Shown here: positions 50,609-55,603 of the stretch, piece after piece
How the letters are laid out: every line of letters starts with the position of its first letter
Position numbering within the stretch: position 1 is the first letter of the stretch
Origin: Sulfurospirillum halorespirans DSM 13726
GTDB taxonomy: Bacteria > Campylobacterota > Campylobacteria > Campylobacterales > Sulfurospirillaceae
Length of the DNA: 64,000 nt
Assembly: GCF_001723605.1 (NCBI RefSeq)
Contig: NZ_CP017111.1
Coordinates: 682,001-746,000, forward strand
Direction of reading: 5' to 3'
The notes under the pieces: model-generated
Told to the model about the DNA's origin: nothing
What the model saw: the letters and a program-made list of their open reading frames with translations, nothing else
Database searches by the model: none
Program-made: the position numbers and the translations under genes

Positions 50609-50821
50609 ATGAATTTTCGATTTTGGATAGCTCTCTATAAAGAGGGTTTTAGCCATTTGAGGGTTGGAAAAACATTGTGGAAAGTGATTTTTATTAAGCT
50701 TTTGGTGATGCTAGTTCTTTTCAAAGGACTCTTCTTCAACGAAACCTTGCATACGCTCTTTGAAGATGAGACGCAAAAAAGCGAGTATGTATTAGATAAT
50801 TTAACAAAGGATATCAAGTGA
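50609..50821 (+). CDS. DUF4492-like small membrane protein
   Basis: 70 residues with one hydrophobic segment (about 24-42) and basic residues before it. Proteins of this kind (DUF4492) precede cydAB in many Campylobacterota and Bacteroidota, so it probably helps assemble or stabilise the bd oxidase; there is no direct proof here. Its stop overlaps the GTG start of cydA (GTGA), so the two are translationally coupled. Confidence 0.75.
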   Translation: MNFRFWIALYKEGFSHLRVGKTLWKVIFIKLLVMLVLFKGLFFNETLHTLFEDETQKSEYVLDNLTKDIK

Positions 50822-52347
50822 ATGAACTCGCTTCGGTGGATTGGAGTAGGGCGCAATTTGCGCTGACCGCCATCTACCATTTTTTATTTGTTCCCTTAAC
50901 ATTGGGGCTCAGTTTTTTAGTGGCAATTATGGAGACACTTTATGTCAAAACGGGTGATCTGGAGTGGAAAAAAGCAACCAAGTTTTGGATGACGCTTTTT
51001 GCCATAAACTTTGCTATCGGCGTTGCTACAGGGCTCATTATGGAGTTTGAATTTGGTACCAACTGGGCGAATTATTCGTGGTTTGTCGGTGACATCTTTG
51101 GCGCACCGCTTGCGGTAGAAGGCATTTTAGCCTTTTTTATGGAGTCCACCTTTTTTGCCGTCATGTTTTTTGGCTGGAACAAAGTCAGTAAAGGCTTTCA
51201 TCTGCTCTCGACGTGGTTGGTTGCCCTTGGCTCCAACCTCTCTGCCTTTTGGATTTTGGTGGCGAACGGTTGGATGCAGTATCCTGTTGGGATGGTGTTT
51301 AATCCAGACAGTGCGCGCAACGAGATGGCAAACTTTTTTGATGTTTTGCTCTCACCTGTGGCGATTGCAAAGTTTTTGCATACGGTTGCAAGTGGCTATG
51401 TGATTGGATCGTTGTTTGTTGTGGGCATCTGCGCATGGTTTTTACTTAAAAAACGCCATCTTCATTTTGCCAAACGCAGTATGCTTGTGGGAGCATCCTT
51501 TGGTTTACTCACCTCCCTTTTTTTAACCCTCAGTGGTGATGAGAGTGCCTATCAGGTTGCACAACATCAACCGGTTAAGCTTGCGGCGATGGAAGGGATT
51601 TATAAAGGAGAACATCGTGCGGGTCTTATTGCGTTTGCCTTTTTAAATCCTGATAAAAAAATAGGCGATGATCTACACCCTTTTATCGGTGATATTGAGA
51701 TACCGTATCTTCTCTCGTTTCTAGGATACCGCAACATTGAGGCGTTTGTACCAGGTTTAGATGATTTGGTGTATGGCAATCCCTCAAAAGGGGTCGTATC
51801 GGCAAGCGAGCGTATCGAAAGTGGCAAAATAGCGCTGAGTGCGCTTAAGAGCTATCGTGAAGCGAAAAAAGAGGGTAATGCGGCTTTAATGCAAGAATCC
51901 CACACGCTTTTAACGACGCACATGCCCAATTTTGGTTATGGTTATTTGGACAGACCTGAGCAGATCGTGCCTCCCATTGCACTAACGTTTTACACGTTCC
52001 ATCTGATGGTCAGTCTTGGTATGTGGTTTCTAGCGCTGTTTATCATTGTACTTTTTCTCTTAATGAAGCGTGAGATAATGCGTTATAAACCTATTTTGTA
52101 TGCAGCGCTTTGGAGCATTCCTTTGGGTTATATTGCCGCTGAGTGCGGCTGGATTGTGGCGGAGGTTGGCAGGCAACCGTGGGCGATTCAAGACTTGATG
52201 CCAGTCCACATTGCTGCAACGAACTTAGGCAGTGGGAATGTGATGATCTCATTTACCCTATTTGCCATACTTTTTACCCTTTTGTTGATTGCTGAGATTA
52301 AGATCATGGTGAAGCAAATCGCAATCGGCCCTGATGGAGGTCACTGA
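50818..52347 (+). CDS. cydA: Cytochrome bd quinol oxidase subunit I
   Basis: Main subunit of the high-affinity bd oxidase, which reduces oxygen to water with quinol. 509 residues, about nine membrane helices. Conserved parts visible: haem-ligand region WSRAQFALTAIYHFLF (His near residue 19), GLIMEFEFGTNWANYSWFVG, and the quinol-site GRQPW near residue 445. For an anaerobe or microaerophile it serves oxygen scavenging and defence. GTG start coupled to the DUF4492-like gene; cydB begins in the stop codon (TGATG). Confidence 0.96.
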   Translation: MNELASVDWSRAQFALTAIYHFLFVPLTLGLSFLVAIMETLYVKTGDLEWKKATKFWMTLFAINFAIGVATGLIMEFEFGTNWANYSWFVGDIFGAPLAVEGILAFFMESTFFAVMFFGWNKVSKGFHLLSTWLVALGSNLSAFWILVANGWMQYPVGMVFNPDSARNEMANFFDVLLSPVAIAKFLHTVASGYVIGSLFVVGICAWFLLKKRHLHFAKRSMLVGASFGLLTSLFLTLSGDESAYQVAQHQPVKLAAMEGIYKGEHRAGLIAFAFLNPDKKIGDDLHPFIGDIEIPYLLSFLGYRNIEAFVPGLDDLVYGNPSKGVVSASERIESGKIALSALKSYREAKKEGNAALMQESHTLLTTHMPNFGYGYLDRPEQIVPPIALTFYTFHLMVSLGMWFLALFIIVLFLLMKREIMRYKPILYAALWSIPLGYIAAECGWIVAEVGRQPWAIQDLMPVHIAATNLGSGNVMISFTLFAILFTLLLIAEIKIMVKQIAIGPDGGH

Positions 52348-53480
52348 TGTTTGAACTACTCTCTTTGCTTCAATTGCAACAGTTGTGGTGGATTATTGTA
52401 AGCCTTTTAGGAGGCATTTTTGCGTTTTTACTGTTTGTACAAGGGGGTCAAACCTTCCTGTTTTCCCTTCCTGCCAATGAAACAGAAAAAACGATGTTGG
52501 TCAACTCTTTGGGGCGAAAATGGGAGCTTGGCTTTACCACGTTGGTTCTCTTTGGCGGTGCTTTATTTGCGGCATTTCCTCTTTTTTACGCGACCAGTTT
52601 TGGGGGTGCGTATTGGGTCTGGCTTGCCATTTTGTTCTGTTTTATCATTCAAGCGGTCAGTTACGAATACCGAAAAAAGCCTGATAATTTTTTAGGAACG
52701 AAAACATACGAATGCTTTTTGTATCTCAATGGAAGCTTAGGTGTTTTACTCTTAGGTATTGCCATCAGCACCTTTTTTAGCGGAGCAGCGTTTCATCTCG
52801 ATGAGAACCGCTTTGTCTTTTGGGATAATCCTTTACGGGGGCTAGAAGCGCTACAAAATCCATTTAATTATCTTTTAGCATTCACGCTTTTCTTTCTTTC
52901 GCGCATCGGTGCAGGGCTTTATTTTATCAACACGATAGACCATGATGCTTTACATGTAAAGATCAAAACGATGCTTAGATCGCAGACGCTGCTCTTCTTA
53001 CTCTTTTTTGCAAGCTTTATGGGTTGGATTCTCACCAAAGAGGGATTTGCCTATGATCCTCTCACCAAAGTGGTGATGATCGTGCCGTACCATTATGCCA
53101 ACAATTTTGCCCAAATGCCTTGGGTCTTAGCGCTTTTTTGTCTGGGCGTTTGTTTGGTCGTTTTTGGCGTGTTGCGCACCCTTTTTAGCACCAACAAAAC
53201 AAGCATTAAGCCTTTTGGTGTGGGCGTTGTTTTTACGGTGATGGCACTGTTTCTCACGGTTGGACTGAACTATACCGTTTTTTATCCCTCTTTGAGCGAT
53301 CTTTCAAGTTCATTGCACATTGAAAATGCGAGCGGAAGCTTCTATACATTGACAACGATGAGTTATTTGGGGTTGATGATTCCGTTTGTTGTGGCATACA
53401 TTGCTTACGCGTGGTATGCTATGAATCGTGTGAAAATTACGGAAGCAGAGATGAACGACTCTAGCCAACATCACTATTAG
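52347..53480 (+). CDS. cydB: Cytochrome bd quinol oxidase subunit II
   Basis: Second membrane subunit of the bd oxidase, 377 residues, about eight helices, beginning with LQQLWWIIVSLLGGIFAFLLFVQGGQ (in segments), the usual CydB opening. The start overlaps the cydA stop by one base. A TTACATGTAA copy (52950) is read L-H-V-K in a loop. The operon continues with a very small ORF 9 bases later. Confidence 0.94.
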   Translation: MFELLSLLQLQQLWWIIVSLLGGIFAFLLFVQGGQTFLFSLPANETEKTMLVNSLGRKWELGFTTLVLFGGALFAAFPLFYATSFGGAYWVWLAILFCFIIQAVSYEYRKKPDNFLGTKTYECFLYLNGSLGVLLLGIAISTFFSGAAFHLDENRFVFWDNPLRGLEALQNPFNYLLAFTLFFLSRIGAGLYFINTIDHDALHVKIKTMLRSQTLLFLLFFASFMGWILTKEGFAYDPLTKVVMIVPYHYANNFAQMPWVLALFCLGVCLVVFGVLRTLFSTNKTSIKPFGVGVVFTVMALFLTVGLNYTVFYPSLSDLSSSLHIENASGSFYTLTTMSYLGLMIPFVVAYIAYAWYAMNRVKITEAEMNDSSQHHY

Positions 53481-53489
53481 GAGAACAGT

Positions 53490-53594
53490 ATGGATTACAC
53501 ACATTCGCTTTTATGGTTACTATCATGGCCACTGCTGATTGGATTAAGTTATGGATTTATTCGTTTAAATCTTTATATTCTTAAAGATGAGTAA
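53490..53594 (+). CDS. 34-residue CydX-like small membrane protein
   Basis: A 34-codon ORF 9 bases after cydB, with a very good AGGAGA ribosome site 5 bases before its ATG. The product starts MDYTHSLLWLLSWPLLIGLS, has one membrane-spanning helix (about 7-28) and ends in a charged LKDE. CydX, the third subunit of bd oxidases, is encoded in just this place, has a similar size (37 residues in E. coli) and one helix. Sequence identity to known CydX is not evident, so the call rests on position, size and ribosome site. Confidence 0.7.
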   Translation: MDYTHSLLWLLSWPLLIGLSYGFIRLNLYILKDE

Positions 53595-53687: not shown

Positions 53688-54359
53688 ATGATTAACGTTT
53701 TGATGATAGAAGATGATGCTGAATTTGCTGAAATCTTAAGTGAATACCTCGCGAAATACAATATCAAAATCACCAATTATGAAGACCCTTATTTGGGATT
53801 AACCGCAGGCATTAAAAAGTACGATCTGCTGATTTTAGATCTGACGTTGCCGGGGATGGATGGACTTGAAGTCTGTAAAGAGATTGTGGCACAGTACGAC
53901 ATTCCCATCATTATCTCCTCAGCGCGCAGTGACATTAGCGACAAAGTGATCGGGCTTCAAATCGGGGCAGATGATTATCTGCCAAAACCGTACGATCCTA
54001 AAGAGATGTACGCGCGCATTCAAAGCTTGATCCGTCGTTACAAAAAGAGCTCCACGCTCGAAGATCAGCAAGGAGCGAGTGTCTTTTTGGTCGATGAAAA
54101 ACGCCATGAGATCTCGTTTAAAAATGAAGTTTTAAGTCTTACCCCTGCTGAGTATGAGATTCTCTCTTACATGATCAAGCAAAATGGTTTTTCGATTTCG
54201 CGCGAACAGCTGGTCTACAACTGCAAATCCCTGAAAGATAAAGGTTCTAAGAGTTTAGATGTCATCATCGGACGATTACGTGCCAAAATTGGCGATGACT
54301 CGAAGAGTCCGGAATACATCCACTCGGTTCGAGGGATTGGGTATAAGCTGGTTGGATGA
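53688..54359 (+). CDS. racR: OmpR-family response regulator (RacR-like)
   Basis: 223 residues: receiver domain (about 1-118) with acidic pocket MIEDDAEF, phosphorylation Asp in LLILDLTLPGMDGLE (about residue 51), Lys in YLPKPYDPKEM; winged-helix DNA-binding domain (about 130-223) ending SPEYIHSVRGIGYKLVG. The order response regulator-kinase-recR matches racR-racS-recR of C. jejuni, where RacRS controls temperature-related and, in later work, respiratory gene expression. ArsR of Helicobacter is the other close relative. Confidence 0.85.
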   Translation: MINVLMIEDDAEFAEILSEYLAKYNIKITNYEDPYLGLTAGIKKYDLLILDLTLPGMDGLEVCKEIVAQYDIPIIISSARSDISDKVIGLQIGADDYLPKPYDPKEMYARIQSLIRRYKKSSTLEDQQGASVFLVDEKRHEISFKNEVLSLTPAEYEILSYMIKQNGFSISREQLVYNCKSLKDKGSKSLDVIIGRLRAKIGDDSKSPEYIHSVRGIGYKLVG

Positions 54360-55603
54360 TTAAAAACTCGATTCTGAACAAGATCAGCGCGATCTTTTTT
54401 CTCTCACTTTTTTTGTTGGCGATGTTTTTTGCACTTTTATTGGAGCATCAAAGCGACAAAAACTTAGACAATATGAAACAGCGCCAAATTCAATCGGTCA
54501 ACTATCTTTTGGTGATGTACCGCAACAACGTTCAACCGCAGGATATTGAAGAGTATTTTAATAACTTTGGACTCAAAAAAGTCTCTAGCAAACACCTGCG
54601 TGATTCGGTGTTGGAGCGTGGGGTGGTCATTTTTCAAAAGCTTTCACCCATTAGTCGTTTCTCCTCCATTGTTTACAATGATCGCTACTATCTTTTCATC
54701 GACAATTTCGAATCGAGCGTGCTTTTGGAGAGTCAAGACTACAAAAATTTTAACGAGAGTTTGTGGGTTGTTTTTGTCATAGCGCTTCTGATTTTGCTTT
54801 ACATGTACATCTCCATTTTTAAAAGTATCGCTCCATTGAAAACACTCAGCTCTCAAATACGCAAGTTTGCTTCGGGCGATCTTGAGATTGAATGCAAGAG
54901 TGAATCCAACGACGAGATCGGTGAAGTCGCCAATGAGTTTGACCGAGCCGTGAAAAAAATCCACGATCTGATCAATTCACGACAGCTTTTTTTACGCACC
55001 ATTATGCACGAGCTTAAAACGCCCATTGGCAAAGGGCGTATTGTCGCGGAGATGTTAGAGGATGAAACGGCTAAAAAGCGCTTGATTGGGGTTTTTGGAA
55101 GGCTGGATCTGCTCATTTCTGAGTTTTCAAAAATCGAGCAGATTACCTCGAAGCGTTACGATTTGAGTCTGAAAGAGTATTCGCTTTTACATGTCGTCGA
55201 TCAAGCAATTGATCTGTTAATGCTGGATGATAAAAAAAGAGAAGATCAAGTAAAAGTGGAGGGCGATTTTGATTTTAAAGTCACCGTTGATTTTGATTTG
55301 ATGGCACTTGCGCTTAAAAACCTGATGGACAATGCGATGAAGCACAGTCTGAACCATAACGTTTTTGTCAAAAGTAAAGATCAAACCGTGATAATTTCCA
55401 ATGAAGGTGAACCGCTTAAAATGTCTATTGATGAGTATTTTCAACCCTTCGTTTCAGGGTCAAAAGCGTGTGGTAGTGGTCTTGGGTTAGGACTGTACAT
55501 TGTTAAAAACATCATTGCTCAACATGGTTTAGAAGTGGTTTACAGCTATGAAGGGGGATTCCATCAATTTAGTATCGATTTTTCCAAAGGGTGTGCTGTA
55601 TGA
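54356..55603 (+). CDS. racS: Sensor histidine kinase (RacS-like)
   Basis: 415 residues: membrane segments at about 9-27 and 138-158 enclosing a periplasmic sensor of some 110 residues, HAMP linker (about 160-210), HisKA with FLRTIMHELKTPIGKGR (phospho-His near 221) and HATPase (NLMDNAMKHS; GSGLGLGLYIVKNI). Starts in the racR stop (ATGA) and ends overlapping recR, so all three are coupled. One near copy (54799) and one half copy (about 55187) of the palindrome lie in the gene. Confidence 0.87.
   Translation: MIKNSILNKISAIFFLSLFLLAMFFALLLEHQSDKNLDNMKQRQIQSVNYLLVMYRNNVQPQDIEEYFNNFGLKKVSSKHLRDSVLERGVVIFQKLSPISRFSSIVYNDRYYLFIDNFESSVLLESQDYKNFNESLWVVFVIALLILLYMYISIFKSIAPLKTLSSQIRKFASGDLEIECKSESNDEIGEVANEFDRAVKKIHDLINSRQLFLRTIMHELKTPIGKGRIVAEMLEDETAKKRLIGVFGRLDLLISEFSKIEQITSKRYDLSLKEYSLLHVVDQAIDLLMLDDKKREDQVKVEGDFDFKVTVDFDLMALALKNLMDNAMKHSLNHNVFVKSKDQTVIISNEGEPLKMSIDEYFQPFVSGSKACGSGLGLGLYIVKNIIAQHGLEVVYSYEGGFHQFSIDFSKGCAV

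Follow-up and report, generated by a model that had tools for sequence, protein, structure and literature searches.

The closest described counterpart of the gene considered here is cydY, predicted in 2014 by Allen et al. (PMC4325964) as a family of one-helix proteins that are encoded directly 3' of cydB in Epsilonproteobacteria behind a strong ribosome site and have as hallmarks a conserved tryptophan at the start of the helix and a CydA partner of the long-Q-loop type. The family, reported for 15 species that the paper places among the Epsilon- and Deltaproteobacteria and defined, among others, in Campylobacter concisus, was set apart from CydX and suggested to have evolved independently (PMC4325964). 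For Campylobacter jejuni, the report by Froschauer, Svensson et al. 2025 (PMC11955535) describes CJsORF3, a 34-aa protein of one helix encoded after cydB/cioB, detected by Ribo-seq and confirmed by western blot. Reciprocal co-immunoprecipitation showed that it binds CioA, and it was renamed CioY; its conserved residues are given as tryptophan, proline and tyrosine, and a model places it on CioA in a CydX-like way (PMC11955535). The CydX of Escherichia coli contacts CydA helices 1, 5 and 6, has its C-terminus in the cytoplasm, and clamps the helix bundles to which hemes b558 and b595 are bound (PMC6853902). A further one-helix subunit of the E. coli bd oxidase, CydH/YnhF, has also been called CydY (PMC6853902) and is an unrelated protein; because of this collision in nomenclature, CioY is the name that avoids confusion. 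CydZ (PF10617, DUF2474), also a small helix protein encoded after cydB, is reported together with short-Q-loop CydA.

Every testable characteristic of CydY/CioY is found in a 34-codon ORF of Sulfurospirillum halorespirans DSM 13726, located in the stretch of 64,000 nucleotides that was analysed as a whole and is here called the window (Table 1). We hold with high confidence that this ORF is cydY (= cioY) and closes a four-gene operon, DUF4492-cydA-cydB-cydY, and that its single-helix product most likely clamps CydA; the family itself, and CioA as its binding partner, are already published. The ORF lies immediately 3' of cydB on the same strand, and the ribosome site AGGAGA stands before its ATG, similarly to most Campylobacterota relatives, with TTAGGAGAACAGT preceding the start codon. 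The product of 34 aa, read from the sequence and the ORF list, is MDYTHSLLWLLSWPLLIGLSYGFIRLNLYILKDE. Its hydropathy is consistent with one membrane helix, and the AlphaFold2 single-sequence model comprises one helix from residue 3 to residue 33 at a mean pLDDT of 89.7, encompassing the conserved W13, P14 and Y21. Both the 34-codon frame behind a ribosome site 9 bases after cydB and the single membrane helix had been proposed in a preliminary description of this DNA, and both are borne out. The CydA encoded in the window can be aligned to E. coli CydA (6rko_A) along almost all of its length and is of the long-Q-loop type: measured between equivalent motifs, the spacing across the Q-loop is 138 residues here, the values for E. 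coli and M. smegmatis being 136 and 80. Homology with named members of the family is seen in two named loci of C. concisus (L043, L046), whose ORF belongs to one family with that of the window. No substantive difference from the CydY of Allen et al. (PMC4325964) is apparent, apart from the family extending here to loci of Bacteroidota and Chlorobiota as well; compared to CioY, the window gene is an ortholog in another genus.

Table 1. Features of the cyd operon in the window (positions counted from the first nucleotide of the window)
Feature	Position	Strand	Remarks
Gene of a 70-aa small membrane protein with DUF4492 (PF14899)	50609..50821	+	First gene of the operon; Pfam E = 5.3e-22
cydA, bd-type oxidase subunit I, long Q-loop	50818..52347	+	PF01654, E = 1.1e-164
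cydB, bd-type oxidase subunit II	52347..53480	+	PF02322, E = 1e-60; stop TAG 53478-53480
cydB stop codon and 9-nt spacer	53478..53489	+	From the sequence; AGGAGA ribosome site spans both
cydY (= cioY)	53490..53594	+	34 codons, very probably one-helix small subunit; start ATG 53490, stop TAA 53592-53594; from ORF list, conservation and predicted structure

Comparison with relatives shows that the ORF is a protein-coding gene under purifying selection. In four non-overlapping pairs of close relatives, the ORFs differ at 16, 9, 12 and 14 nt, with 5, 1, 5 and 5 amino-acid changes resulting, so that the substitutions are mostly silent relative to random placement (P = 0.0004, 0.0002, 0.016 and 0.0016, respectively). 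Conservation across the class Campylobacteria extends to the frame of the ORF, its position and the residues W13, P14 and Y21. A profile (A1) built from 14 members of Campylobacterota, in which W13-P14 is invariant and I17 and Y21 are near-invariant (Y21 in at least 90%), was searched over 200 Campylobacteria genomes, 85 of which bear cydB as judged by PF02322 at the curated cut-off. The profile matched downstream of cydB, on the same contig and strand, in 83 of these 85 genomes, a minority of the matches being non-independent of the profile, some of whose sequences came from genomes among the 200. The distance from cydB to cydY, taken between profile edges, has a median of 67 nt and is at most 500 nt in 82 of the 83. 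Among the cydB-less genomes of the same sample there was no A1 match above noise, the weak multi-copy matches in two of them (G156, G232; E = 0.004-0.005) having been set aside as such. Two cydB-bearing genomes were without a detected cydY counterpart when it was looked for. One of them has cydAB decayed and in fragments (G131); the other (G142, locus L112) has a cydA and a cydB that look intact and no cydY found downstream of cydB, and the subunit may therefore be dispensable or encoded elsewhere there. The earlier suggestion that this was a real gene of a kind easily missed agrees with these results.

As a separate observation, Sulfurospirillum genomes contain two distinct types of cydAB, both with cydY (loci L013, L016, L020 and L028 compared to L001, L023 and L024), in which CydB is 67-95% and only about 51% identical, respectively, to the CydB of the window.

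Scans of the ORF and its relatives with Pfam and NCBIfam returned noise only, no model matching any member scanned, and the family profile found no match among solved structures. Given that members scanned are without a Pfam or NCBIfam model, a family profile would recover the gene in genomes of Campylobacterota and Bacteroidota; the practical importance lies in the correction of a gene likely missed or mislabelled.

Short ORFs are common, and the window has others of them close downstream of longer genes with a ribosome-like motif: of the 83 ORFs in it that reach 100 aa or more (counted on both strands, some spurious), 4 have close behind them an ORF of 25-70 codons that carries a Shine-Dalgarno-like motif. 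Two of these 4 short ORFs are clearly hydrophobic. By this estimate of chance, drawn from the 64-kb window only, the pattern is just moderately unusual, and gene status therefore rests on the comparison with relatives. That comparison leaves hardly any probability that the ORF, in the 3' region of cydB, is there by chance or is an artefact of translation, and that any translation of it would serve only coupling or mRNA stability: this reading is opposed by the codon-level constraint and the class-wide conservation, and also by the C. jejuni ortholog, which PMC11955535 reports to be translated and to bind CioA. We consider it just as improbable that read-through of the stop codon adds the ORF to CydB as a C-terminal extension. 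The TAG and the 9 nt behind it do keep the ORF in frame with cydB in the window; however, the spacer in relatives measures 8, 11, 12 or 14 nt or is much longer, with the frame lost in many, and most Campylobacterota loci retain a ribosome site immediately ahead of the start codon. Read-through was rejected on the spacer frame in relatives.

A gene of its own being thus accepted, the question of family is between CydY/CioY and CydX, for the preliminary description had taken the ORF for a likely divergent CydX. The part of that proposal which stands is the probable one-helix subunit of a bd oxidase; the assignment to CydX gives way to CydY/CioY. Common ancestry with E. coli CydX, in the form of a highly divergent descendant of the same ancestral gene, is suggested by the operon position, the size and a single helix that has a tryptophan close to where it begins, as well as by the models of PMC11955535, which place CydX and CioY on CydA in a similar manner. 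Yet no sequence relationship with the E. coli protein was detectable. Even with E values as high as 10 allowed, the CydX model PF08173 matched neither the ORF nor any of 14 relatives, and it was found in 0 of 200 Campylobacteria genomes, whereas the E. coli and Caulobacter controls were positive. Profile comparison by hhalign returned a probability of 4%, a value of limited weight by itself, given that the CydX profile is shallow, with two sequences, and both proteins are tiny. The profile was composed of two E. coli CydX-type sequences, the second of which we take to be AppX. The first was confirmed against PDB chain 6rko_X. The CydX pattern of Y3, W6 and G9 at the helix start is absent from the ORF, which has a WP motif instead, and Allen et al. 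class CydY as a family separate from CydX (PMC4325964). Common descent with CydX is accordingly considered highly improbable, if somewhat less so than the chance-ORF and read-through readings, a length of 34 residues leaving some room for it. Two further small subunits were tried and rejected as identities for the ORF: CydZ, there being no PF10617 match and the Q-loop of CydA being long, not short; and CydH/YnhF, which is encoded outside the cyd operon, whereas the ORF sits in it. Assignment to CydY/CioY is further evidence that the one-helix subunits of bd oxidases differ between several lineages while being encoded at the same place.

By analogy with C. jejuni CioY, the window ortholog is expected to be translated and to bind CydA. 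The protein would be a single transmembrane helix, probably with its N-terminus out and its C-terminus in. This topology is suggested, indirectly, by two features, namely the more basic character of the end that follows the helix, and the signal-peptide-like N-terminal extension on CydY of two relatives (L021, gap 3, 72 aa; L027, gap 9, 70 aa), in which a short hydrophilic stretch separates the signal-peptide-like part from the WP helix. CydY most likely packs on the long-Q-loop CydA as E. coli CydX does, the two proteins probably occupying an analogous place. In doing so, it would clamp those CydA helices in which the b-type hemes are held, and would thereby help the heme site to assemble or to stay stable; such a clamp role is the most likely one by the same analogy.

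Beyond Campylobacterota, the family was recognised after cydB in 104 of 109 loci, chiefly from Campylobacterota, Bacteroidota or Chlorobiota, a count that is not an independent test because the search was iterative. A separate profile (A2), made from the loci of Bacteroidota and Chlorobiota and their like, was related to A1 in profile comparison at 99% probability (E = 1.5e-18). Two matches were obtained in a phylum-wide but thin sample of 198 Bacteroidota genomes. Among 198 genomes of one Bacteroidota order, cydB was present in 138 and an A2 match in 73 of the 138, with 71 of the 73 located downstream of cydB on the same contig and strand. Some of the cydB-bearing, A2-negative genomes of this order have a quite different cydB; others have a similar cydB and no visible small ORF downstream. 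A published absence of CydY in Porphyromonas gingivalis agrees with these A2-negative genomes, and some Bacteroidales genomes have DUF4492 kept and CydY undetectable. Loci with similar cydB and no visible CydY are L147, L148, L152, L153 and L157; at these, as at L112, CydY may have been lost, may have moved elsewhere or may have diverged extremely. Our literature search, outside which most subscription papers lay, found no description of the family's range in Bacteroidota; we regard the extension to Bacteroidota and Chlorobiota as a modest addition of uncertain novelty. We think it likely that CydY/CioY is a cross-phylum family of Campylobacterota, Bacteroidota and Chlorobiota which, in one lineage of bd oxidases with a long Q-loop, replaces CydX and co-travels with DUF4492. 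Since CydY travels with DUF4492, the bd oxidases concerned may have two extra small proteins.

Overlaps between genes and synteny support the four-gene operon DUF4492-cydA-cydB-cydY, which had been proposed earlier with a DUF4492-like first gene; the match to PF14899 confirms the identity of that gene. The stop codon of the DUF4492 gene overlaps the start of cydA (GTGA), and the start codon of cydB overlaps the stop codon of cydA. Of the 85 Campylobacteria genomes that bear cydB, 84 have DUF4492 at the curated cut-off. A search of the literature, most subscription papers aside, found no paper on DUF4492. The cydW of P. gingivalis, a small membrane-protein gene at the same position that is cotranscribed with cydAB (PMC4668044), is probably a DUF4492 gene, judging from position, size and taxonomic spread. 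A scan for terminators and promoters gave no terminator-like site in the spacer between cydB and cydY, nor one just 3' of cydY on the + strand, the counts being near the shuffled mean. Directly after the cyd operon, on the same strand, genes of a response regulator and a histidine kinase occupy 53688-55603 of the window.
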